DNA of 64,000 bases from Gemmatimonadetes bacterium SCN 70-22 (GTDB lineage Bacteria > Gemmatimonadota > Gemmatimonadetes > Gemmatimonadales > Gemmatimonadaceae): positions 1 through 64,000 of the forward strand of contig MEDZ01000009.1 of assembly GCA_001724275.1 (NCBI GenBank), read 5' to 3'. Positions 4,183 through 14,871 of this stretch are shown in pieces; within the stretch, counting starts at the first letter, position 1, and every line of letters starts with the position of its first letter. The position numbers and the translations under genes are program-made. A model generated the notes under the pieces. It searched no databases, was not told where the DNA came from, and worked only from the letters and a program-made list of their open reading frames with translations.

Positions 4183-5754
4183 ATGACTTCCTCCGTCCCC
4201 GCCCTCAGGCGTCGCGCCGCGACACTGGCCATCATCGCCAGCGCCGCGCTCACCCTCCCCGCCGCCGCGCAGCCGGCCAGCACGCGCGCCATCCTCGCCG
4301 ACCTCGATCGCTACATCCCAAGGGCACTGGCCGAGTGGAACGGCGCCGGCGTCGCCGTCGGGATCGTGAAGGACGACTCGCTCGTCTATGCCAAGGGGTT
4401 CGGTGTGCGCGCGGTGGGGAAGCCCGACGCGGTCGACGACCGCACGCTCTTCGCCATTGGCTCCAACACCAAGTTCTTCACCGCCGTCGCCGCCGGCATG
4501 CTCGCCGACGACGGCAAGCTCTCGCTCGACGACAAGGTCACGCGCTTCCTCCCATGGTTCCAGCTCCACGATCCATGGGTCACGCGCGAGTTCACGCTCC
4601 GCGACGCCATGTCGCACCGGAGCGGGCTGGGGCGGCGGGGCGACGCCCTCTGGTACGGGACGCCCTTCTCGCGCGATGAAATCATCCGGCGCGTGCGCTA
4701 CCTGGTCCCGAACACGTCGTTCCGCTCCGAGTTCGGCTACCAGAACATCATGTTCCTGACCGCGGGACAGGCCATCGCCGCGGCCGCCGGCAGGAGCTGG
4801 GACGACGTCGTGCGCGAACGCATCTTCGAGCCGCTGGGGATGACCGCGTCCAGCACGAGCGCCAAGTCGCTCGCGACCGCCTCCAACCTGGCGTCGCCGC
4901 ATTCGCTGGAGGGGGACCAGGCGCGTCCCTCCCCGATCCCGTACCGCGACATCGACAACGTCGCGCCCGCAGGGTCGATCAACTCGAACGTGCAGGACAT
5001 GGCGCGGTGGATGCGCTTCATCCTCGCCGGCGGGAGCTACGGGGGGCGCACCCTCCTCAAGCCTGCCACGCTCGCCGACATCACGTCGCCGCACACGATC
5101 GCCACGCGCATCGTCAACGACACTCTCAACCCCACCCGCCACTTCTCGCTCTACGCTCTCGGCATCGGCCTGTCCGACCTGCACGGCGTGAAGGTCCTGC
5201 AGCACACGGGGGGGATCGACGGGATGCTCTCGTTCGTGGCGATGGTTCCCGAGCGCAAGCTGGGGATCGTGGTCCTCACCAACGTGTCCGGGCACAACGC
5301 CCTGTACACCGCCCTGGGGAACCGCATCCTCGACGCCTTCCTGGGAGGGCCGACGCGCGACTGGAGTGCCATTGCGCTGGCGCAGACGAAGCGCGCCGAG
5401 CAGGCGGCCGCCGAACGCATGCGCACGCGGATGGCGCAGCGCGTCCAGGACTCCCGGCCGTCGCGCCCGCTGGCCGAGTACGCGGGCACCTACCGCAACG
5501 AGATGTATGGGGACCTCACCGTCTCCCTCGAGGAGGGGGCGCTCGTGTTACGCTATCCCACGGCGACGGTGCTGCACCTCCACCACTTCACCTTCGACAC
5601 CTTCATGGGGACGGCGACGGCGGTGAGCGCGCTCGCGTCGGACGCTTCGACCGTGCGCTTCGAGCTCGACCCCCAGGGGCGAGTGGCCTCGGTCGACCTG
5701 GAGCAGGTGGGGACGTTCACCCGCGCGGACGGGAGGCCACACATCACGAAATGA
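4183..5754 (+). CDS. exported class C beta-lactamase-like serine hydrolase with DUF3471-like tail
   Basis: A 523-residue member of the serine hydrolase family that includes class C beta-lactamases, DD-peptidases and esterases. A signal peptide spans about residues 1-30, ending near AAAQ. The catalytic set is complete: S94-N-T-K97 (SxxK), Y184-Q-N186 (YxN) and H339-T-G-G (KTG-like). Residues after about 420 look like the beta-rich DUF3471-type C-terminal domain common in this family, so peptidase or esterase activity is more likely than true beta-lactamase activity. It is a single gene, divergent from the acyl-CoA operon. It acts in the periplasm or outside; the natural substrate is unknown. 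Confidence 0.87.
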   Translation: MTSSVPALRRRAATLAIIASAALTLPAAAQPASTRAILADLDRYIPRALAEWNGAGVAVGIVKDDSLVYAKGFGVRAVGKPDAVDDRTLFAIGSNTKFFTAVAAGMLADDGKLSLDDKVTRFLPWFQLHDPWVTREFTLRDAMSHRSGLGRRGDALWYGTPFSRDEIIRRVRYLVPNTSFRSEFGYQNIMFLTAGQAIAAAAGRSWDDVVRERIFEPLGMTASSTSAKSLATASNLASPHSLEGDQARPSPIPYRDIDNVAPAGSINSNVQDMARWMRFILAGGSYGGRTLLKPATLADITSPHTIATRIVNDTLNPTRHFSLYALGIGLSDLHGVKVLQHTGGIDGMLSFVAMVPERKLGIVVLTNVSGHNALYTALGNRILDAFLGGPTRDWSAIALAQTKRAEQAAAERMRTRMAQRVQDSRPSRPLAEYAGTYRNEMYGDLTVSLEEGALVLRYPTATVLHLHHFTFDTFMGTATAVSALASDASTVRFELDPQGRVASVDLEQVGTFTRADGRPHITK

Positions 5755-6069
5755 CACAGGCGGCATTTATTGCCGTTCATTCTCTCGGCACCGTTACGAT
5801 CTCATCCGGTCCCAAGTCATTGCCCCTGAGCGCATTGGGGAGGGCTAACCAGGAGGCGGAAGATTCGTCCGCCGAGGCGATCCCCGGCGCGAGGACCTCT
5901 TCCGGTGCTGCGGCGGCGCGCGCGTGGCATCGGCATGCGCCCGGATGCCACACGTCGAAGGCCGAACTCCACCGTCGATTCACGCCTCGCCCAAACACCG
6001 ACATGCATGTCGGCCGCGGCCGCACGCGCGCGATGGTGTAGGCCCCGCCCTCGAGCCGAGGAGGGACGC
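5755..6069 (+). other. 315-bp structured leader/intergenic region before the signalling operon
   Basis: No convincing gene. The open frame continuing upstream of the 6070 gene here is probably incidental, because a good ribosome binding site marks 6070. The region holds several short inverted repeats: 5761-5775 (CGGCA/TGCCG, 5-nt loop), 5855-5873 (GGCGGA/TCCGCC), 5924-5951 (GTGGCATC/GATGCCAC, 12-nt loop) and the perfect palindrome at 5998-6013. It may be a 5' leader with regulatory structure or contain operators. I recognise no known riboswitch. Confidence 0.5.
5998..6013. promoter_or_regulatory. perfect 16-bp palindrome, candidate operator
   Basis: CCGACATGCATGTCGG reads identically on both strands and lies 57 bp upstream of the GTG start of the signalling gene. 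Size and position fit a dimeric repressor or activator site for the exopolysaccharide operon. No regulator can be named. Confidence 0.5.
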
Positions 6070-8085
6070 GTGATCGCCTTCGCGTCGCTCGATGCCGCGA
6101 TGCGGGGGCAGCATGCCGCCGAGGTGTGGGCGCGCCTGCGCGACCGCCACCTGCAACGCGTGGAAGTGCTCGAGGGTGCCGTCCTCGCGCTGATGGATGG
6201 CGCCCTCGACGAGGAGCTGCGCGGGCGCGCGGAGGCGGAGGCGCATGCGCTGGCGGGATCGGTGGGGACCTTCGGGCTGCGCGGCGGGGCGCGCCTCGCG
6301 CGTGCGCTGGAGCAATCGTTCGCCGCGCGCTACACGCTGGGACGTCCCATGGCGGCCCGCCTCGCCGATCAGGTCACGGCGCTGCGGCGTGAACTGGAGC
6401 GCCCGAGGGTCGCCGCCGGCGCTGCTGCCGATATGGATGGGGGGCGGCGCGTCCTGGTCCTGACTGACGATGGGCGCGGCGACCAGTTCGTGACCGAAGG
6501 AGTGACGGCCGGGCTCGAGGTGATGGTGCGCCCGCTGCACGGGGGCCACGTCGCGGTCTTCGAGGAGGCGCCGGACGCGATCGTGGTCGAGGCGGGCGAC
6601 GCCTCGGTCGACGCCGTGGTGTCGCTCCTTGGCTCCCTCGCCGGTCGTGCGACGGGCCCCGTCCTCGTCACCGCGGTCGACGATGACATGGCCATCCGCC
6701 TTGCGATCGCCCGGAGCGGGGCCATCGGTCCGCTCATGGCCGGTCACCCCCCGTCGGCGATCCTCGAGCGTGCCCTCGCGGCCATGCAGGGGCGCGAGGG
6801 CGCCACCGCCTCGCTCCTCGTGGTGGACATCGATCCGTACTCCCTGCAGTCGGTGACGCTCGTCCTGGAACAGGCGGGGCACCGGGTCCACGCTCTCGAC
6901 GCCCCCGCCGGCTTCTGGGAGACGCTGGAGTCGGTCACGCCCGATCTCGTCGTCCTCGGCGCCGAATTGAACGAGGTGACGGGGCTCGACCTCTGCCGGG
7001 CGCTGCGCGCCGATCCGCGCTGGCGCGACCTCCCGGTGATCTTCATGGCTTCGGCCGACGAGGCGCCGCTGGTGAAGGGGGCGTACCATGCCGGAGCAGA
7101 CGATGTGGTCCGGAAGCCGCTGCAGCGCGAGGAGCTCATTGCCCGGGTGGAGAACCGGCTGCACCGCTCGCGCCAGCTGCGCCGGCAGGGGGAGGCCGAC
7201 GCGCTCACCGGGCTCCCCGGACGGCCGAAGGCCGAACGCGAGATCGAGCGCTTCATTCAACTGGCTCGCCGGCACCGGCACGAGGTCACGCTCGTGACCC
7301 TGCGCCTCGACCGCCACGCGGACGTGGTGCAGCGGGCGGGGCAGGGAGCGATGGACGCCGCCGTGCTGGCCTTCAGCCAGGTGCTGCGGCACTCGTTCCG
7401 CTCCGAGGACGTCATCTCGCAGTGGGGGCCTAACGAGTTCGTGGTGGCGCTCTTCGACTCGAACGGCGCCAACGCGGCAGTGCGCGTGCGCGAGGTGATG
7501 GCGGCGCTCCGGTCCCGGCGCTTCCCGGCACCGCCCGGTGAGGCGTTCTCGCTGACCTGCAGCGCGGGCATCGCCTCGTATCCCGAGGACGGCGCCGACG
7601 TGCGCGAGCTGCACGAGGCCGCCGACGCCGCGCTCATGGCGGCGGGGAACGCGGGTATCGACGAGGCGCTCGGCGTCGCCTGCGACCCCAACCGCCCCGC
7701 CACCGGGCGCGCCGACATCCTGCTCGTCGAGGACGATGCGGCGGTGGCCCGGCTCCTGGTGCACGCGCTGGAGAGCCGGCAGTACCAGGTGCAATGGATG
7801 CGCAGCGGACAGGCGGCAGCCGACGCCCTGCTCGGGGCGAAGCCGGCGCTGCGCGCGCGCCTGATCCTCCTCGAGGTCAACCTCCCCGAGCTCGACGGCC
7901 TCGCCCTCCTTCGCAGCCTGGCGGAGCAGGACGTCCTGCGCCACACCCGCGTCATCGTGCTGAGCTCGCGGACCACCGAGGCCGAGACGGTGCAGGCGTT
8001 CGAGCTCGGCGCCTTCGACTACGTCGCCAAGCCGTTCAGCGTCGCGGTCCTGACCGAGCGCATCCGGAGGGCGCTGCGCGCATGA
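6070..8085 (+). CDS. degenerate signalling protein: Hpt, three receiver-like domains and a GGDEF-like domain
   Basis: A 671-residue cytoplasmic protein starting at GTG 6070, preceded by GAGGAGGG at 6058-6065. The N-terminal ~115 residues form an Hpt-like helical domain with an AHALAGS motif (candidate phospho-His 59). Residues ~124-235 form a weak receiver-like domain, ~245-375 a clearer receiver, ~375-530 a GGDEF fold and ~545-671 a C-terminal receiver. The expected phospho-Asp positions read E174, G297 and E602, and the GGDEF signature is GPNEF (453-457), so phosphotransfer and cyclic-di-GMP synthesis look impaired. The switch lysines (about 349 and 654) remain. It overlaps the HEAT-repeat gene by 4 bp. 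It probably acts as a scaffold or constitutive regulator of the downstream polysaccharide machinery; that role is inference. Confidence 0.8.
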   Translation: MIAFASLDAAMRGQHAAEVWARLRDRHLQRVEVLEGAVLALMDGALDEELRGRAEAEAHALAGSVGTFGLRGGARLARALEQSFAARYTLGRPMAARLADQVTALRRELERPRVAAGAAADMDGGRRVLVLTDDGRGDQFVTEGVTAGLEVMVRPLHGGHVAVFEEAPDAIVVEAGDASVDAVVSLLGSLAGRATGPVLVTAVDDDMAIRLAIARSGAIGPLMAGHPPSAILERALAAMQGREGATASLLVVDIDPYSLQSVTLVLEQAGHRVHALDAPAGFWETLESVTPDLVVLGAELNEVTGLDLCRALRADPRWRDLPVIFMASADEAPLVKGAYHAGADDVVRKPLQREELIARVENRLHRSRQLRRQGEADALTGLPGRPKAEREIERFIQLARRHRHEVTLVTLRLDRHADVVQRAGQGAMDAAVLAFSQVLRHSFRSEDVISQWGPNEFVVALFDSNGANAAVRVREVMAALRSRRFPAPPGEAFSLTCSAGIASYPEDGADVRELHEAADAALMAAGNAGIDEALGVACDPNRPATGRADILLVEDDAAVARLLVHALESRQYQVQWMRSGQAAADALLGAKPALRARLILLEVNLPELDGLALLRSLAEQDVLRHTRVIVLSSRTTEAETVQAFELGAFDYVAKPFSVAVLTERIRRALRA

Positions 8086-9146
8086 GGCAGTCCCTCCTCT
8101 ACCTGGCGTCGTACTACCTCGTGTATCTCGAGTTCACGATCGCCCTCGTGCTCATGCTGGCGCTGGCGCTGAGTGCGGCGCTGGCGCGCTGGCGCCGCGA
8201 GCGGCATGAGTCGCAGGGCGCCGCGGGGCGCGAGGTGCTGGCCCGCGCCATTGCCCAGGGGATGGAGCATCCGCACGACGTGGCGCGCTTCGCGCGCCTG
8301 CCGTGGACGGTGCAGCAGGAGTTGATGCACGAATTCGGCGCCTCGCTCACCGGAAGCGGACGCGAGCGCCTGACGAGCCTCGGCGTGCGCACCGGGGTGG
8401 CCCGGCGCGCGGAGCGGATGTGCGCGAGCCCGTGGTGGTGGAGGCGCCTCGCGGGGGCGCGCGTGCTCACGGCGCTCGACCACGACTGCGCCGCAATGCG
8501 TCCCCTGCTGCGGGACCGCAGCGCGGTGGTGCGTGCCCAGGCCTTCGTCTGGGCGGCGGGGCGGGTGGACGAGGCGGTGATCGAGGACCTCGTCGCGAGC
8601 CTCGCCGACCCCGAACGGCTGTGTCGCTTCACCGTCCAGGATTCACTCCTTCGCCTGGGGCGCCCGTCGGCGCAGGCGCTGCGCCGCTTCCTGGCCGATC
8701 CCGACTGTCCCGGGTTGCACGACGCCCTCGTGGTGGCGCGAGGGTTGGCCCTCCCCGAGCTGCTCGACCCTGCGCTCGAGCTCGTGCAGCACCCGTCGGC
8801 GGAGGTGCGTGCGCGCGCCGCCGCGGTGCTCGGAGTGCTGGGGGGCGACCAGGCGGTGGAGTCGCTCGTCAGGCACCTCGACGACGACGCCTGGGTGGTG
8901 CGGGCCGCGGCCGCCCGCGCCCTGGGCGACCTCGGGGCGTGGATGTCGAGCTCGTCGCTGATGCGGTTGCTGGGCGACACCAGCTGGCCCGTCAGGCGCG
9001 AGAGCGCCCTTGCCCTGCGCCGCCTGGGCGGCGTCGGCTTGCTGGCGCTTCGCCGCGCGCTGCGCTCGGAGAATCCGTTTGCCGCCGACATGGCGCGCCA
9101 GGTGCTCGACCTTCCCGAGGCCGTCTGCCAGCGGGCCACCGCATGA
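8082..9146 (+). CDS. membrane-anchored HEAT-repeat protein
   Basis: A 354-residue protein with one N-terminal transmembrane helix (about residues 12-35) followed by a basic stretch and a cytoplasmic array of HEAT-like helical repeats (about 110-340). Recurrent patterns such as VRARAAAVLGVLG and VVRAAAARALGDLG are typical of PBS-lyase/HEAT units. HEAT arrays bind proteins and have no catalysis of their own. The ATG at 8082 overlaps the stop of the signalling gene, and its own stop overlaps the start of the glycosyltransferase, so all three are translationally coupled. A plausible job is to dock the signalling protein onto the membrane glycosyltransferase. The longer open frame upstream of 8082 is a shadow of the signalling gene. 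Confidence 0.8.
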   Translation: MRQSLLYLASYYLVYLEFTIALVLMLALALSAALARWRRERHESQGAAGREVLARAIAQGMEHPHDVARFARLPWTVQQELMHEFGASLTGSGRERLTSLGVRTGVARRAERMCASPWWWRRLAGARVLTALDHDCAAMRPLLRDRSAVVRAQAFVWAAGRVDEAVIEDLVASLADPERLCRFTVQDSLLRLGRPSAQALRRFLADPDCPGLHDALVVARGLALPELLDPALELVQHPSAEVRARAAAVLGVLGGDQAVESLVRHLDDDAWVVRAAAARALGDLGAWMSSSSLMRLLGDTSWPVRRESALALRRLGGVGLLALRRALRSENPFAADMARQVLDLPEAVCQRATA

Positions 9147-10774
9147 TGGCCGCGCTCTCCACCGCGCTTGCCCCCATCCTGGCGGGGCTCGACGCCTCGA
9201 TCCTCCTGTACTTCGTCTGCATCAATGCGGCATACCTGACGCTGGTTGCCTGCTCCACGTGGGAGCTGGTGATCCACATCCTCAGCATCCGCGGCGAGAG
9301 TCGTGCTCGCGTCCTGGGTTCGGCTGTCACCCCGTCCATCAGCATCCTGGCCCCTGCCTACAACGAGGAAGCGACGATCGCCGAGAGCGTGACCGCCCTC
9401 CTGGCGCTGCACTATGCCAACCTCGAGCTGGTCGTGGTCAACGACGGGTCGCCGGACCGGACGCTGGACGTACTGAAGCAGCGCTTCGCGCTCGTCCCCA
9501 TCCACTCCATCGTCTGGCGTCGCATCGACACCAGGGCGGTGCGGGGGCTGTACCGCTCGCGCACGCATCCCAACCTGCTCGTGGTGGACAAGGAGAACGG
9601 GGGAAAGGCCGATGCCCTCAACGCGGGGCTCAACCTGGCCACGGGCGACCTGGTCTGCGTCATCGACGCCGACACCATCGTCGACGCCGACGCCCTGCAG
9701 CGCCTGGCGCGCCCCTTCCTGAGCCACCATGACGTGCTTGCGGCTGGCGGCACGATCCGCATCGCCAACGGGTCGGCGATCTCGGCCGGGCGGGTGACCG
9801 ACGCCTGCGCCCCACGCAACTTCGTGGCCGGCGTGCAGGTGGTCGAGTACTTCCGCGCCTTCATCTTCGGACGGCTCGGGTGGAACCGCCTGGGCGGGAA
9901 CCTGATCATCTCCGGCGCCTTCGGCCTCTTCCGCCGCGACGCCATGATCGCGGTCGGCGGCTACACGCATGACACCGTGGGCGAGGACATGGAGCTCGTC
10001 CTCAAGCTGCGCCGCCAGGCGTACGAAGCGGGGCGCAAGCACCGCATCCTGTTCGTCCCCGATGCCGTGGCCTGGACCGAGTGCCCCGAGTCGCTGCGCG
10101 TGCTGGGGCGCCAGCGCGACCGCTGGCACCGGGGGCTCACCGACGTGCTCTGGCGCCACCGGACCATGTTCCTCAACCCGCGATACGGCGTGGTGGGGCT
10201 CTGGTGCTACCCGTACTTCGTCTTCGTCGAGCTCCTGGCCCCGGTGCTGGAGCTGCTGGGGTGGGTCGGGCTCACGTTAGGCATGGCGGCCGGCCTCCTC
10301 GACGCCTCGTTCGCCGCGCTCTTCTTCCTCCTGGCCTACGGCATCGGGGCCGTGCTCAGCGCCTACTCGCTCCTGCTGGAGGAATGGAGCTTCAACCGCT
10401 TCACGCGCTTCGGCGACCGCGTCCGCCTCCTGCTCTACCTGGTCCTCGAATCCTTCGGCTACCGGCAGCTCACCGTGGTCTGGCGACTGCGAGGGATCTG
10501 GAAGTTCCTGCGCGGGCGGACCGACTGGGGGCGCATGGAACGGCGTGGCTTTGCGGCGGCGGCGGCTCCCGTCTCGGCCACTCACCACGCGACCTCTGCC
10601 TCCGCGACATCCGCCCCCGCGCCCAGCGCCCATGCGGGATCCGGCCGCGCGCCCGCCACGCACCCCGCATTCACCCGTGTCCCATCGCCCCATTCCGCCG
10701 CCGCCCTCCCCGTGACGCCAGGCGTCGTTTCGACCTCCGACTCTCATCCGGGCCGCCCACCGGCTGCCGCCTGA
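9143..10774 (+). CDS. GT2 membrane glycosyltransferase (PgaC/IcaA-like polysaccharide synthase)
   Basis: A 543-residue processive family-2 glycosyltransferase that polymerises an activated sugar and probably moves the chain across the inner membrane. There is an N-terminal membrane segment (~17-48) and a catalytic GT-A domain with PAYNEE (71-76), D101 in NDGSPD, DAD (175-177), an E-D pair (281-282) and QRDRW (324-328). At least two C-terminal membrane helices follow (~356-412). The architecture matches poly-N-acetylglucosamine synthases of the PgaC/IcaA type. Residues ~470-543 form an Ala/Ser/Pro/His-rich tail not usual for the family and probably disordered. The start overlaps the HEAT gene; a YaiO-like barrel follows 6 bp later. 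The sugar polymer is unknown. Confidence 0.85.
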   Translation: MMAALSTALAPILAGLDASILLYFVCINAAYLTLVACSTWELVIHILSIRGESRARVLGSAVTPSISILAPAYNEEATIAESVTALLALHYANLELVVVNDGSPDRTLDVLKQRFALVPIHSIVWRRIDTRAVRGLYRSRTHPNLLVVDKENGGKADALNAGLNLATGDLVCVIDADTIVDADALQRLARPFLSHHDVLAAGGTIRIANGSAISAGRVTDACAPRNFVAGVQVVEYFRAFIFGRLGWNRLGGNLIISGAFGLFRRDAMIAVGGYTHDTVGEDMELVLKLRRQAYEAGRKHRILFVPDAVAWTECPESLRVLGRQRDRWHRGLTDVLWRHRTMFLNPRYGVVGLWCYPYFVFVELLAPVLELLGWVGLTLGMAAGLLDASFAALFFLLAYGIGAVLSAYSLLLEEWSFNRFTRFGDRVRLLLYLVLESFGYRQLTVVWRLRGIWKFLRGRTDWGRMERRGFAAAAAPVSATHHATSASATSAPAPSAHAGSGRAPATHPAFTRVPSPHSAAALPVTPGVVSTSDSHPGRPPAAA

Positions 10775-10780
10775 CCTGAC

Positions 10781-11587
10781 ATGCCCCCACTCCGCTTCGC
10801 CATGCGCCATGCCTCGTTGTTCCTGCCGGCGTTGCTCCCGCCGGCGTTGCTCCTGGCGGCACCCCCCGCCCTCGCGCAGGAGGGGACGGGGACGCGCCTC
10901 ACCAGTCTCGAGGTGCGCGCCGGGCGCGACGCCCTCACCAACGGCGCGGCCCCGTGGCAGGAGCAGGCCATCGCGCTCCGCTACCGCCACTCGGCGCGCA
11001 CCGGCGTCGGTGTCGCGGCCGAGCGGCTCGAGCGATTCGGGATGGAGGACCGGCGCCTCGTGGCGGACTGGTCGACCGCCGTGGCGCGCTGGCTCACCGT
11101 CGGCGCCGAGGGCGAGGTGAGCGCGACGCACCGGGTGGCGGCGCGGCAGGGCGGGGCGGCGTTCGTGCACCTGGCGATCCCCGCCGGTTGGGGGATCGAC
11201 CTGCGCGGGATGGCGCGCTCGTACGACTCGGCCACGGTGCAGGGGGCCACGGCGTCGCTGGAGAAGTACTGGGGGAGCCAGATGGCGTCGTACAGCGTGT
11301 CGCCGGTGCGGATGGCGGGGCACCCGGTGGCGACGACGCAGCGCGTCCGGGTTACGCGGTACCTCGCCACACGCGGGTCGCTCAGCGTGATGGCGTCGGC
11401 CGGGCGCGAGGTGGAGACGCTCTCGGCGGCCGGCCCCCTCGTGGCCCCCGTGCGTGCCGTCGGGGTGTGGGGGGTGCTCCCGGTGTCACCGCATCTCTCA
11501 CTGACCTATGCCGCTGACGTGTCGCGCCACGAGGGGCTCTTCACGCGGCGGCACGCGTCGCTGGGGGTGCGGATCGACAGTCGTTAG
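10781..11587 (+). CDS. YaiO-like outer-membrane beta-barrel
   Basis: A 268-residue exported protein with a signal peptide of about 32 residues ending near ALAQ. The rest alternates hydrophobic and polar residues in many short strands, ending in a strand that closes SLGVRIDSR, as expected for an outer-membrane barrel. The overall pattern resembles the YaiO family, found beside exopolysaccharide synthases. It follows the GT2 gene by 6 bp and ends the operon; a strong hairpin starts 2 bp after the stop. A likely role is export or modification of the polymer made by the upstream synthase, inferred from context. The stop codon lies inside a GTTAGGC word. Confidence 0.65.
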   Translation: MPPLRFAMRHASLFLPALLPPALLLAAPPALAQEGTGTRLTSLEVRAGRDALTNGAAPWQEQAIALRYRHSARTGVGVAAERLERFGMEDRRLVADWSTAVARWLTVGAEGEVSATHRVAARQGGAAFVHLAIPAGWGIDLRGMARSYDSATVQGATASLEKYWGSQMASYSVSPVRMAGHPVATTQRVRVTRYLATRGSLSVMASAGREVETLSAAGPLVAPVRAVGVWGVLPVSPHLSLTYAADVSRHEGLFTRRHASLGVRIDSR

Positions 11588-11708: not shown

Positions 11709-14045
11709 TCAGGGGACCACGCGCGGCTTCCCGATCTGGTACTCCTTCGGCGGGAGGTTCCCCTGCAGGTTGGTGATGAAGTAATCCCACCGGCGGCGCA
11801 TGATGTACGGCGCGTCGGCGCCGAAGCCGTGGCGCGCGTGCGGGAGCATGATCTGGTCGAAGTCCTTCCCCGCCTTCATGAGCGCGTCGGCCACCAGCTG
11901 CGTGTTGTAGGGGGGGACGTTGTCGTCCATCATCCCGTGGATCAGGAAGAGCTTCCCCTTGAGGTTCCTGGCGTGGGTCTGGTTGGCTTCGTCGGCGTAG
12001 TTGTCGCTGCCGTTGCTGCGCACCAGGAGCCCCTGGTACCGCTCGCCCCAGTCGTCCTCGTAGTTGCGGTTGTCGTGATTGCCCGACTCCGAGATCCCGA
12101 CCTTGAAGAAGTCCGGATGGCGGAACATCGCCGCCGCGGTCGCGAAGCCGCCCCCCGAGTGTCCCCAGATGCCCACGTTGTCGATGTCGATGAACCGGTA
12201 GCGCTGGGCCAGCTCCTTCATCCCCGCGATCTGGTCGGGGAGCGTGTTGTCGCCCATCCGTCCGTAGTAATAGTCGTGTAACGCCTTCGAGCGTCCGGGC
12301 GTCCCCATCCCGTCGATCTCCACCACCACGAACCCCAGCTCGGCGAGTGCCTGGTTGTCACCGCGCGCCGGGATGAACGAGCGCGGTCCCACGCTCCCGG
12401 ATTGCGGCCCGGGATAGATGTGGTTGATGATCGGGTACTTCTTCGCCGAGTCGAGCTTCGACGGGAGGTACATCAACCCGTAGATGTCGGTGGCGCCGTC
12501 GCGTGCCTTCATCCGCACCGGAACCGGCGCGCGCCACCCGGAGGCGACGAGGCGCGAGACGTCGGCGCGCTCGAGCACCTGCAACGCCTTCCCGTTGCGG
12601 TCGCGGAGGACGGTGACCGGCGGCGTGTCGGGGGTGGAGTACGTGTCGACGATGTACTTCCCGTCAGGTGAAACATTCACCGTGTGGTTCGCCGCCTCGG
12701 GAGTCAGGAGGACCTGTCCCTTGCCGTCGAAGCCGATGCGGTAGAGGTGCTGGAAGTACGGGTCGCGCCCCGGCTCCTTCCCGTTGGCGGTGAACCAGAC
12801 CTGCCGTGCCTTCTCGTCGATGCGGACGACCTCGGAGACGTTCCCCTCGCCGGTCGTGATGCGGTTCTTGAGCGTCCCGGTCGTGAGGTCGTAGAGGTAC
12901 AGGTGGATCCAGTTGTCGCGCTGCGACCACCAGATCAGCTCGTTGGTCGCGGGGAGGACTCGCCAGAGGTTCTCCGGGAGCGAGGCGTCGCCCAGCTGCG
13001 TGGCGCTCTGCTCGTGCAGGACCTCGCGCACCTCGCCCGTGCCGGCGTTGGCCACCCGCAACCAGGCGTGCTTGTGGTCGCGCGAGCTCGAGATGAAGGC
13101 CAGGTGCGAGCCGTCGGGATACCACTGGGTGTCGCAGATTTCCGAACCGCAGGCAATGTGGTCGGAGACGGTCGAGCGATGCGCATCGGGGGGCATCTGC
13201 AGGCGCACCACGCGCGGCTTGCCGTCGGCGCCGGCGTTGATGATCACCCGAGAGATGCGGAAGACGATGCTGTCGCCGGGGAGCGGGTACTTCCACGCCT
13301 GGAGCGTCGGGCTCCCCACGTTGGTGCTGACGAGGTACATGTCGCGCACCCCGCGCCCGTCGTGCTGGAACGTCGCGATCTGCCGCGAGTCGGGCGACCA
13401 GGTGACGATGGGATTGTCGCCGTGTACCCACCCGGCGTTGTTCGTGGCGTAGCCGAAGTCCTTGACCCCGTCGGTGGTGAGCTGCGTCTCGGTCCCGCTG
13501 GCCAGCTCCCTGACCCAGAGGTTGTCGTCCCGGATGAACGCCGCCCACTTCCCGTCGGGGGAGGTGCTGGAGTTGGCCGGCGCCTGCGGGGGCGGCGTTC
13601 CGCGCGTGCAGGCGTACTGGGCGAGGTCGCAGGTGTACGGGACGTTGCGCACCGTCACCGTCACCGCCTTGCCGTCAGCCGCAAGCTCGAACGAACTGAA
13701 CGGAAGCCGGTCCCCCTCGATGGTGCTCCCCGTCGCCGCGCCGAGCCCGGCCGCCAGCCGCTGCTGGTCGAACGCGGCGGTGCGGGTGCGGCGCGCCGGG
13801 TTCACGATGTAGAAGGCGCTCCCGCTGGAGGTCGAGGCCCGGTACCAGAAGCGGCCGTCGGCCAGCCACGTCGGGCGCCCGGCTGCTCCGCTCACCAGCG
13901 GATTGGCGGTCGGCGCCAGGAATCGCTCGGCGCGCGCGTAGTCCTCGATGGTGAACTGGTACGGCTTGGGAGCCGGTGCCTGTGCCGCCAGCACCGCTGG
14001 AACGGCGAGGGCGAAGAGCATGCGTGAGGGGTGGAGCGGGCGCAT
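11709..14045 (-). CDS. exported DPP-IV-type prolyl oligopeptidase (S9)
   Basis: A 778-residue serine peptidase of family S9 (dipeptidyl peptidase IV subtype), which removes N-terminal dipeptides from peptides, usually after proline. The ATG at 14045 begins a signal peptide of about 21 residues ending LAAQ; the frame stays open further upstream but that part is not protein-like. The N-terminal half is the beta-propeller DPPIV_N domain. The C-terminal alpha/beta hydrolase carries the nucleophile in WGHSGGGF, an HGMMDDNVP segment (acid residue) and the catalytic His in PHARHGFG. It is divergent from a peroxiredoxin gene across 217 bp. It is probably periplasmic and used for peptide feeding. Confidence 0.9.
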   Translation of the reverse strand: MRPLHPSRMLFALAVPAVLAAQAPAPKPYQFTIEDYARAERFLAPTANPLVSGAAGRPTWLADGRFWYRASTSSGSAFYIVNPARRTRTAAFDQQRLAAGLGAATGSTIEGDRLPFSSFELAADGKAVTVTVRNVPYTCDLAQYACTRGTPPPQAPANSSTSPDGKWAAFIRDDNLWVRELASGTETQLTTDGVKDFGYATNNAGWVHGDNPIVTWSPDSRQIATFQHDGRGVRDMYLVSTNVGSPTLQAWKYPLPGDSIVFRISRVIINAGADGKPRVVRLQMPPDAHRSTVSDHIACGSEICDTQWYPDGSHLAFISSSRDHKHAWLRVANAGTGEVREVLHEQSATQLGDASLPENLWRVLPATNELIWWSQRDNWIHLYLYDLTTGTLKNRITTGEGNVSEVVRIDEKARQVWFTANGKEPGRDPYFQHLYRIGFDGKGQVLLTPEAANHTVNVSPDGKYIVDTYSTPDTPPVTVLRDRNGKALQVLERADVSRLVASGWRAPVPVRMKARDGATDIYGLMYLPSKLDSAKKYPIINHIYPGPQSGSVGPRSFIPARGDNQALAELGFVVVEIDGMGTPGRSKALHDYYYGRMGDNTLPDQIAGMKELAQRYRFIDIDNVGIWGHSGGGFATAAAMFRHPDFFKVGISESGNHDNRNYEDDWGERYQGLLVRSNGSDNYADEANQTHARNLKGKLFLIHGMMDDNVPPYNTQLVADALMKAGKDFDQIMLPHARHGFGADAPYIMRRRWDYFITNLQGNLPPKEYQIGKPRVVP

Positions 14046-14262
14046 CGTCTGTTCAGCCTCGGAAGTCGGTCGAATGGTCGCGCGGAAGCCCCCGGAAGCT
14101 ACAGGCGGGGAGCGACCCCACGCCACACGCGGTGCCGGTGCAGAGGAGGGGCGGGGCGAACCGTTCGGACGGCCGCAGCGTTGAGGGGGAGTGCTCCCTC
14201 GCTCCGGCGACGGCTCGAGCTTTGTCGCCCCCTCCATCACAGTTGGTTCCACCCCCACGTCG

Positions 14263-14871
14263 ATGTCCACCGTTCGATTCACCGGCCTCGTCGCCCTCCC
14301 CGGCCATCTCGCTCGGACCACCCGCGCCGCCGCCCTCGTGGCCTCGATCGCGCTGGCCGGATGCGTCGGCGCTGGGAACGCACGCCCCGCCCCGACGGTC
14401 GGCTCCACCGCGCCCGACTTCACCGTGCGCGCGATCACCCGCGAAGGCCCCATGCCTGCGCCGATCACGCTTTCCGGGTTGCGGGGGAAGACCGTCGTCA
14501 TCGCCTTCTTTCCCAAGGCGCGCACCCCGGGGTGCACCACGCAGCTGACGGCCTATCGCGACCGGTACGCGGCGCTGTTCCACGGGGGAAAGAACGTGGT
14601 CCTGCTCGCCGTGAGCACCGATTCCGAGGGCGCCCTGCTCGATTGGGCGCGGGAGGCGGGCTTCCCGTTCGCGCTCGTGAGCGACGCCGATGGCTCGCTG
14701 GGGAAGGCGTACGGCGCCCTCACCCCCGGTGGGCTCAAGTTCGCCAAGCGGCTGCTTTTCGTGGTTGGACCAGACGGGCGCGTGGCCTACGAGGCCAAGC
14801 CGTTCCGCCAGAACGCGGAGGAGGCCTACACCGAGCTGGCGGCGGCGATCGACCGCGTGGCGGCGCGATAG
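14263..14871 (+). CDS. lipoprotein peroxiredoxin (BCP/AhpC-TSA type)
   Basis: A 202-residue thioredoxin-fold peroxidase that reduces peroxides with a reactive cysteine. The preferred start is ATG 14263; the 24 codons upstream in frame lack family similarity. The N-terminus ends in a lipobox, LAGC (C34), so the protein is probably a membrane-anchored lipoprotein, whereas most BCP-type enzymes are cytosolic. The peroxidatic Cys is C91 in KARTPGCTT. The resolving Cys found five residues later in many BCP proteins is absent (Thr), suggesting a 1-Cys mechanism or an external partner. It is divergent from the DPP-IV gene and convergent with the amidohydrolase. Confidence 0.8.
   Translation: MSTVRFTGLVALPGHLARTTRAAALVASIALAGCVGAGNARPAPTVGSTAPDFTVRAITREGPMPAPITLSGLRGKTVVIAFFPKARTPGCTTQLTAYRDRYAALFHGGKNVVLLAVSTDSEGALLDWAREAGFPFALVSDADGSLGKAYGALTPGGLKFAKRLLFVVGPDGRVAYEAKPFRQNAEEAYTELAAAIDRVAAR

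Follow-up and report, generated by a model that had tools for sequence, protein, structure and literature searches.

The window, i.e. the whole 64,000-nt stretch of DNA that was analysed, carries on its forward strand a gene coding for a multidomain signalling protein, hereafter the regulator, followed by genes for a HEAT-repeat protein, a GT2 synthase and an outer-membrane beta-barrel. The features of the locus are the following:

6059..6064, forward: Shine-Dalgarno sequence AGGAGG, read from the sequence, 5 bp upstream of the GTG start at 6070
6070..8085, forward: regulator gene, 671 aa, Hpt-REC-REC-GGDEF-REC (open reading frame, Pfam; top Foldseek match PleD)
6112..6399, forward: Hpt domain, phospho-acceptor H59 intact (codon 6244-6246), HxLxG (Pfam PF01627, 29.3 bits, cut-off 24.6)
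6445..6789, forward: pseudo-receiver REC1, E174 at the phospho-site (6589-6591), without the conserved Lys (alignment, fold model)
6808..7167, forward: pseudo-receiver REC2, G297 at the phospho-site (6958-6960), acidic pair D253-I254, K349 kept (alignment)
7183..7668, forward: degenerate GGDEF domain, GPNEF at 7426-7440, R412 in place of the metal Asp (Pfam PF00990, 80.5 bits)
7399..7410, forward: RxxD (R444-S-E-D447), aligned with the PleD I-site R359xxD362 (HMMER alignment; 6 of 6 in the clade)
7708..8082, forward: pseudo-receiver REC3, E602 at the phospho-site (7873-7875), acidic pair E554/D555, S632 and K654 kept
8082..9146, forward: membrane-anchored HEAT-repeat protein (Pfam HEAT_2, 70.3 bits; N-terminal hydrophobic segment 5-38)
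9143..10774, forward: processive GT2 polysaccharide synthase, PgaC/IcaA-like, with DAD, GED and QRDRW
10781..11587, forward: YaiO-family outer-membrane beta-barrel, putative export part (TIGR04390, 66.4 bits, above the cut-off of 32)

The Hpt-REC-REC-GGDEF-REC architecture proposed in an earlier note on this DNA was recovered by Pfam, alignment and the fold model. For 6070-8082, Response_reg scored 147.7 bits over the whole protein, with its best stretch at residues 550-666, and the GGDEF and Hpt domains spanned residues 376-529 and 39-107. An AlphaFold model (three sequences) displayed secondary structure for all five domains, the Hpt helices lying within residues 7-110; its mean pLDDT was 69.5 and its pTM 0.29, so that the relative placement of the domains in it is unreliable. 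PleD was the best PDB sequence match (E 4e-26), the top Foldseek match and the best NCBIfam match, and the PleD-type REC-REC-GGDEF core fold was recognized by Pfam, HMMER, AlphaFold and Foldseek. The score against the NCBIfam PleD equivalog, 157.9 bits, lies below its cut-off of 474.

The same note had read Glu, Gly and Glu at the receiver phospho-sites and GPNEF for GGDEF, which is what the alignments gave (E174, G297 and E602; G453-P454-N455-E456-F457). The phospho-Asp is missing in all three receivers, two stretches pass Pfam and the fold is modelled, compatible with pseudo-receivers. The claim that every visible phospho-site is altered is correct for receivers and cyclase but not for the Hpt domain, since H59 is intact within HALAGSVGTFGL and agrees with HxLxG in the sequence alignment, as the note itself had reported for this histidine. 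Of the switch lysines said to be retained, K349 of REC2 and K654 of REC3 are present, whereas REC1 reads GPLMAGHP and has none.

The GG(D/E)EF active site is not found in the window protein. In the HMMER alignment to PleD, residues D327, K332, N335 and E370 were aligned with R412, A417, V420 and N455, respectively; the numbering and roles of these PleD residues, with D327 and E370 as metal ligands, are assumed here. An active variant cyclase of the AGDEF kind is unlikely because the metal Asp and N335 are lost too. A fully conserved I-site was ruled out, as the same alignment retained the RxxD alone: R313 and R390, which we take to be the other I-site Arg residues of PleD, correspond to L398 and to a gap beside V476.

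The ATG of the HEAT gene overlaps the regulator stop by 4 bp (ATGA) and the ATG of the GT2 gene overlaps the HEAT stop likewise. Against TIGR03937 (PgaC), the GT2 protein scored 147.7 bits, under the cut-off of 422.3. In relatives, the GT2 gene is followed by a YaiO protein (L049) or by TPR proteins (L045, L046 and, with a BCSC_C match, L051). This gene set is the predicted anatomy of a synthase-dependent polysaccharide exporter. Upstream, 4183-5754 (forward) codes for a serine hydrolase of the beta-lactamase family (Pfam). Downstream lies a long open reading frame (11709-14540, reverse), conserved in L014 as well and presumably, by eye, resembling a dipeptidyl peptidase. No tRNAs or Rfam RNAs were found in the 64,000-nt window.

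Conservation and selection in the window clade

Orthologues were compared after rows derived from the same contig stretches had been merged and counted once (L009 = L014, L020 = L013; L010 within L041, L021 within L044, L075 within L122); L040 (partial), L036 and L028 were aligned with the regulators and left out of the operon counts. Six members, forming one starred group in the HEAT+GT2 tree, make up the window clade. Their identity to the window protein is 80% (L014), 67% (L010/L041), 65% (L013) and 53% (L021/L044), and 49% over residues 192-669 for L075/L122. In L122 the regulator is split between two frames, and a full GGDEF-EAL gene (L122:8641-10962, forward), divergent from it, adjoins this degenerate regulator.

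A dead GGDEF, a dead REC2 and the REC3 Glu are common to all six members, so the conservation of the substitutions that the earlier note had asked about is found throughout the clade. The GGDEF motif reads GPNEF in the window, L014 and L013, GPNQY in L010, GAGEL in L021 and GPAEL in L122, and the REC2 phospho-site is Gly in five members and Ala in one. E602 is kept in 6/6 members down to 53% identity, its codon being GAG in five and GAA in one. At the REC1 site, among five members compared, Glu occurs in the window, L014, L010 and L021 and Asp in L013. The Hpt histidine with HxLxG is present in the five members that cover the site, the L122 stretch not covering it. RxxD is invariant in all six, versus 47 invariant columns of 162 in the GGDEF domain as a whole.

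Between the window and L014, dN/dS amounted to 0.119 for Hpt, 0.294 for REC1, 0.162 for REC2, 0.218 for GGDEF and 0.117 for REC3, and with three more distant clade members it did not exceed 0.48 in any domain. Hpt was lowest or near-lowest in all four comparisons; the ranking of REC3 against REC2 changes among the more distant pairs. REC1 and GGDEF evolve fastest, REC1 being the least conserved domain (34-75% identity, dN/dS up to 0.48). These values point to a regulator under selection, strongest at its two ends, Hpt and REC3. The earlier idea of a folded, selected, non-catalytic protein is supported by the clade-wide pattern, by purifying selection in all five domains and by the modelled fold. 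A recent local loss was rejected because the degeneracy is shared by six distinct loci, intact orthologues occurring only outside the clade. Judged from sequence, the loss of the catalytic and phospho-sites is old and selected, not decay.

Operon relatives and linked histidine kinases in Gemmatimonadota

The regulator was matched in 24 of 395 genomes of the phylum and in 18 of 179 of its own family (E <= 1e-45), the HEAT protein in 31 of the 395 (E <= 1e-20). HEAT and GT2 genes stand side by side in 37 rows including the window, and a regulator precedes HEAT in 36, the remaining row (L112) giving no regulator match. In one contig scan, all the full-length relatives (2 of 7 loci) came from Gemmatimonadetes records; the scan relied on short peptide patterns, and other phyla may also hold relatives.

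A C-terminal REC is present in 36/36 operon regulators. Those close to the window protein are Hpt-REC-REC-GGDEF-REC proteins, and the distant ones keep the C-terminal REC, mostly with Hpt. The GGDEF domain is catalytic in 6, degenerate in 17, ghost in 6 (L110, L111, L113, L115, L116, L120) and absent in 7 (L108, L109, L114, L117, L118, L119, L121), the last two classes being read by eye from the sequences. In the ghost regulators, a GGDEF-sized middle without recognisable motif lies between receivers with Asp. The L114 regulator is scarcely more than Hpt and REC, and in L117 (4808-6499) and L121 (2924-4447) a very long Pro/Ala-rich linker joins Hpt to the C-terminal REC in place of REC-REC-GGDEF. 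RxxD is kept in 15 of the 17 regulators with a degenerate GGDEF. At the phospho-site of the C-terminal REC, 23 of the 36 have Asp, 7 Glu, 5 Gly and 1 Ala, which requires 7 or more changes on the HEAT+GT2 tree, and L108 carries a second, separate Glu there; catalytic and non-catalytic GGDEF are separated by at least 3 changes. That tree is unrooted, and loss rather than gain is what we argue for.

The g5 group comprises eight loci (L042, L058-L061, L123-L125); L052 (G117) has the genus code g5 too, but with a kinase and live sites, and was counted with the live ones. REC3 carries Gly in 5/8 of the group, and the Hpt histidine is replaced in the 7/7 covering it, the region being kept. Several changes of the REC3 state occurred in this group, and L123 has Gly where its near-sister L124 has Asp (GGT/GAC), so the loss of the phospho-site looks recent and recurrent there.

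For kinase linkage, a match of at least 30 bits within 4 kb of the operon was required, labels were set by hand, and a regulator was called live when it had the REC3 Asp plus, where Hpt is present, its His. The count covers 33 of the 37 rows, L056, L121 and L125 (short upstream) and L112 (no regulator) being left out; L118 offers only 3.1 kb upstream and the L109 kinase is cut by the contig end. A CHASE3-PAS-HisKA-HATPase kinase, mostly with a receiver, flanks the operon in L045, L046, L047, L049, L052 and L057 (Pfam), and the same type adjoins that of L050 by a phmmer match of 1379 bits. All seven regulators have the Hpt His, the REC2 Asp and the REC3 Asp. No kinase was found beside the operon in the window clade (6 loci) or in the g5 group (7 loci with enough sequence).

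In the close clade, an adjacent histidine kinase accompanies 7/9 live-site loci versus 0/13 dead-site loci (live with kinase 7, dead with kinase 0, live without 2, dead without 13; Fisher p 0.0002, uncorrected for kinship). For all rows the corresponding numbers are 10, 1, 8 and 14 (p 0.004). Only 4 independent pairs are available over the tree, on average 2.5 in the same direction, 0.5 opposite and 1 not differing, so that a sign test cannot reach 0.05; the correlation is phylogenetically weak and rests on few independent events. The counter-cases are six distant-clade loci with live REC3 and Hpt and, in the close clade, L051 and L118 with live sites, all having no kinase in the stretch covered, and L119, with a dead REC3 yet a kinase 3 kb away. 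Against the CHASE3 kinases, far lower scores (119-198 bits) were obtained for the kinases next to L109, L115, L116 and L119, and no CHASE3 match was found by Pfam in those of L109 and L119. Outside the operon, the GGEEF members L043, L053, L054 and L055 all have an adjacent kinase (L043 alone checked by Pfam), and L048 (L028; TGGQF; no HEAT/GT2 found) has none in 2.8 kb upstream.

The window genome gave no CHASE3 match, and 22 of the 29 genomes examined gave one, including G001, G002 and most g5 genomes. A genome-wide loss of the CHASE3 kinase is not supported as the cause for all dead lineages; since G001, G002 and most g5 genomes have CHASE3 proteins elsewhere, unlinking is better supported than loss. 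In L049, L050 and L052 the cyclase is dead, the relay live and the kinase present, highlighting that GGDEF degeneration is separate from relay loss. L049 (GPEEL) and L050 (GAEEL) have also lost the I-site Arg, with kinase and receiver Asp intact.

Proposed role of the regulator

The regulator is most likely a phosphorylation-independent regulatory subunit of a polysaccharide machine, derived from a kinase-driven cyclase uncoupled from its kinase, a reading held with moderate confidence on the sequence evidence. The protein was probably once phosphorylated through a partner kinase and synthesised a messenger molecule, and both abilities appear long lost. Its ancestor would probably have been a diguanylate cyclase under phosphorelay control, driven by a CHASE3-PAS hybrid histidine kinase encoded next to it; in the window lineage the locus no longer has this kinase, the receivers would all three have turned into pseudo-receivers and the cyclase would have lost its active site. 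The present protein should be the cytosolic subunit of a synthase-dependent exopolysaccharide machine made of the HEAT protein, the PgaC-like GT2 and the outer-membrane barrel. We propose that it was retained because the Hpt bundle and the Glu-fixed C-terminal receiver, the conserved parts at its two ends, still dock on the HEAT/GT2 complex and set its activity without phosphorylation. Through the RxxD that it has kept, the dead GGDEF may be able to sense c-di-GMP.

Degenerate GGDEF receptors, pseudo-receivers and receiver control of polysaccharide enzymes are each already known; the literature is cited here from excerpts of the papers. PleD of Caulobacter has the same REC-REC-GGDEF core with an aligned RxxD, but the window protein lacks the active site and metal Asp, has both core receivers dead and possesses an extra Hpt and C-terminal REC. 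It can be likened by description to PopA, a REC-REC-GGDEF protein, and to PelD, of a polysaccharide synthesis system, both having a dead GGDEF with RxxD (PMC10333796); R444/D447 follow this pattern of lost active site and retained RxxD. In contrast to these two, the window protein has no predicted transmembrane or GAF part, has Hpt and REC3 in addition, and its c-di-GMP binding is only putative. CbrR of Campylobacter jejuni is likewise an orphan REC-REC-GGDEF protein, its active site being a variant one and its I-site competent for binding; it differs from the window protein in that both its phospho-Asp are predicted present, that it controls motility and that low c-di-GMP production was reported for it in E. 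coli (PMC8779298). The pseudo-receivers ChxR, FrzS and RitR keep the fold and miss the phospho-Asp, as do the window receivers (PMC12632262, PMC4395418), and characterised pseudo-receivers are mostly orphans (PMC12632262). Here, in contrast, three are found in one protein and are traced across orthologues with and without a linked kinase. In Myxococcus xanthus, a receiver (EpsW) directly stimulates a polysaccharide enzyme (EpsZ), which provides a precedent; EpsW, however, is single-domain, phosphorylation-dependent and needs its Asp, where REC3 has E602, and EpsZ is a phosphoglycosyl transferase, where the window operon has a GT2 synthase (PMC12802240). With the PgaC/IcaA and BcsA-BcsC systems the operon shares a GT2 resembling PgaC (147.7 bits) and, in one relative, a BcsC-like TPR/barrel protein, but here a membrane HEAT protein and an Hpt-REC regulator adjoin the synthase.

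It is possible, if doubtful, that the dead GGDEF is mainly a c-di-GMP receptor, c-di-GMP from elsewhere binding RxxD and turning the synthase on. The persistence of RxxD in the clade and in the degenerate operon regulators, the GGDEF-EAL gene divergent from the L122 regulator and the precedents of PopA and PelD (PMC10333796, excerpt) and CbrR (PMC8779298, excerpt) are consistent with such a role. In addition, the window genome holds 12 GGDEF matches (6 GG[DE]EF and 1 GSDEF) and EAL proteins, and no PilZ domain was found in it; as c-di-GMP should be made by gene content, PopA/PelD-like sensing is possible. However, no Arg of the window protein aligns with the remaining PleD I-site positions, RxxD is lost in L049/L050, the operon persists in the part of the distant clade that has lost the whole GGDEF, and the GGDEF constraint is weaker than that of Hpt and REC3. 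Rather more doubtful is a lock in which E602 imitates phospho-Asp and holds REC3 permanently active, control being left to gene expression or substrate. The mimicry suggested by the earlier note could apply to REC3 only, where Glu is fixed and its partners S632 and K654 are kept; it is unlikely at REC1, where Glu is not fixed (Asp in L013) and the lysine absent, and at REC2, which carries Gly or Ala. The separate Glu of L108 also favours the lock, and according to the excerpts Glu can activate some receivers (PMC12632262) and, in receivers without the Asp, replaces it more often than any other residue (26%; PMC4395418). On the other hand, Asp-to-Glu alone is often insufficient (CheY, PhoB, Spo0A) and the ChxR Glu is dispensable (PMC4395418, excerpt), and the Gly of the parallel g5 group (5/8) mimics nothing.

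We consider it quite unlikely that H59 receives phosphate from a hybrid kinase encoded elsewhere, serving in trans as sink or donor while the dead receivers act only as scaffold. Neither a partner receiver nor a kinase turned up at the window locus, and the g5 group, keeping its Hpt region with the histidine replaced in 7/7, suggests that the fold can matter without the histidine, against the conservation of H59 and HxLxG in 5/5 covering members and the low Hpt dN/dS in four comparisons. Very improbable, finally, is a decaying signalling gene carried as a passenger by the operon: the fast evolution of REC1 and GGDEF and the split L122 regulator would agree with it, but the window frame is open, purifying selection acts in every domain in every comparison, E602 is kept down to 53% identity and the predicted model has five folded domains.

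Significance for the family and the phylum

In the excerpts of the literature consulted, no account was found of an Hpt-PsR-PsR-dGGDEF-PsR protein before HEAT-GT2-YaiO, nor an orthologue series tying kinase proximity to receiver state, and the Gemmatimonadota papers on diguanylate cyclase/exopolysaccharide and c-di-GMP contained, in those excerpts, nothing on a regulator-HEAT-GT2 locus. A 2025 review calls the on/off switching of pseudo-receivers a mystery (PMC12632262).

Extending the subunit reading to the whole phylum seems unlikely to be right as it stands: the cytosolic Hpt...REC protein and the membrane HEAT adaptor would form the control head of a phylum-wide synthase machine, and in several lineages unlinking of the kinase would have led to pseudo-receivers and an RxxD sensor. 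If this were true, c-di-GMP or constitutive docking would have taken over control from phosphate, and one orthologous gene would exist in wired and unwired versions.

Within the regulator family, some orthologues have a linked kinase and others do not, one receiver site is occupied by Asp, Glu, Gly or Ala, and the cyclase ranges from intact through dead and ghostly to missing, always ahead of the same two genes (HEAT, GT2), so that the effect of each loss is testable by swapping. The family is thus a helpful series for studying how signalling domains that are 'dead' can still function, and it names a candidate control head for a Gemmatimonadota exopolysaccharide operon so far uncharacterised.
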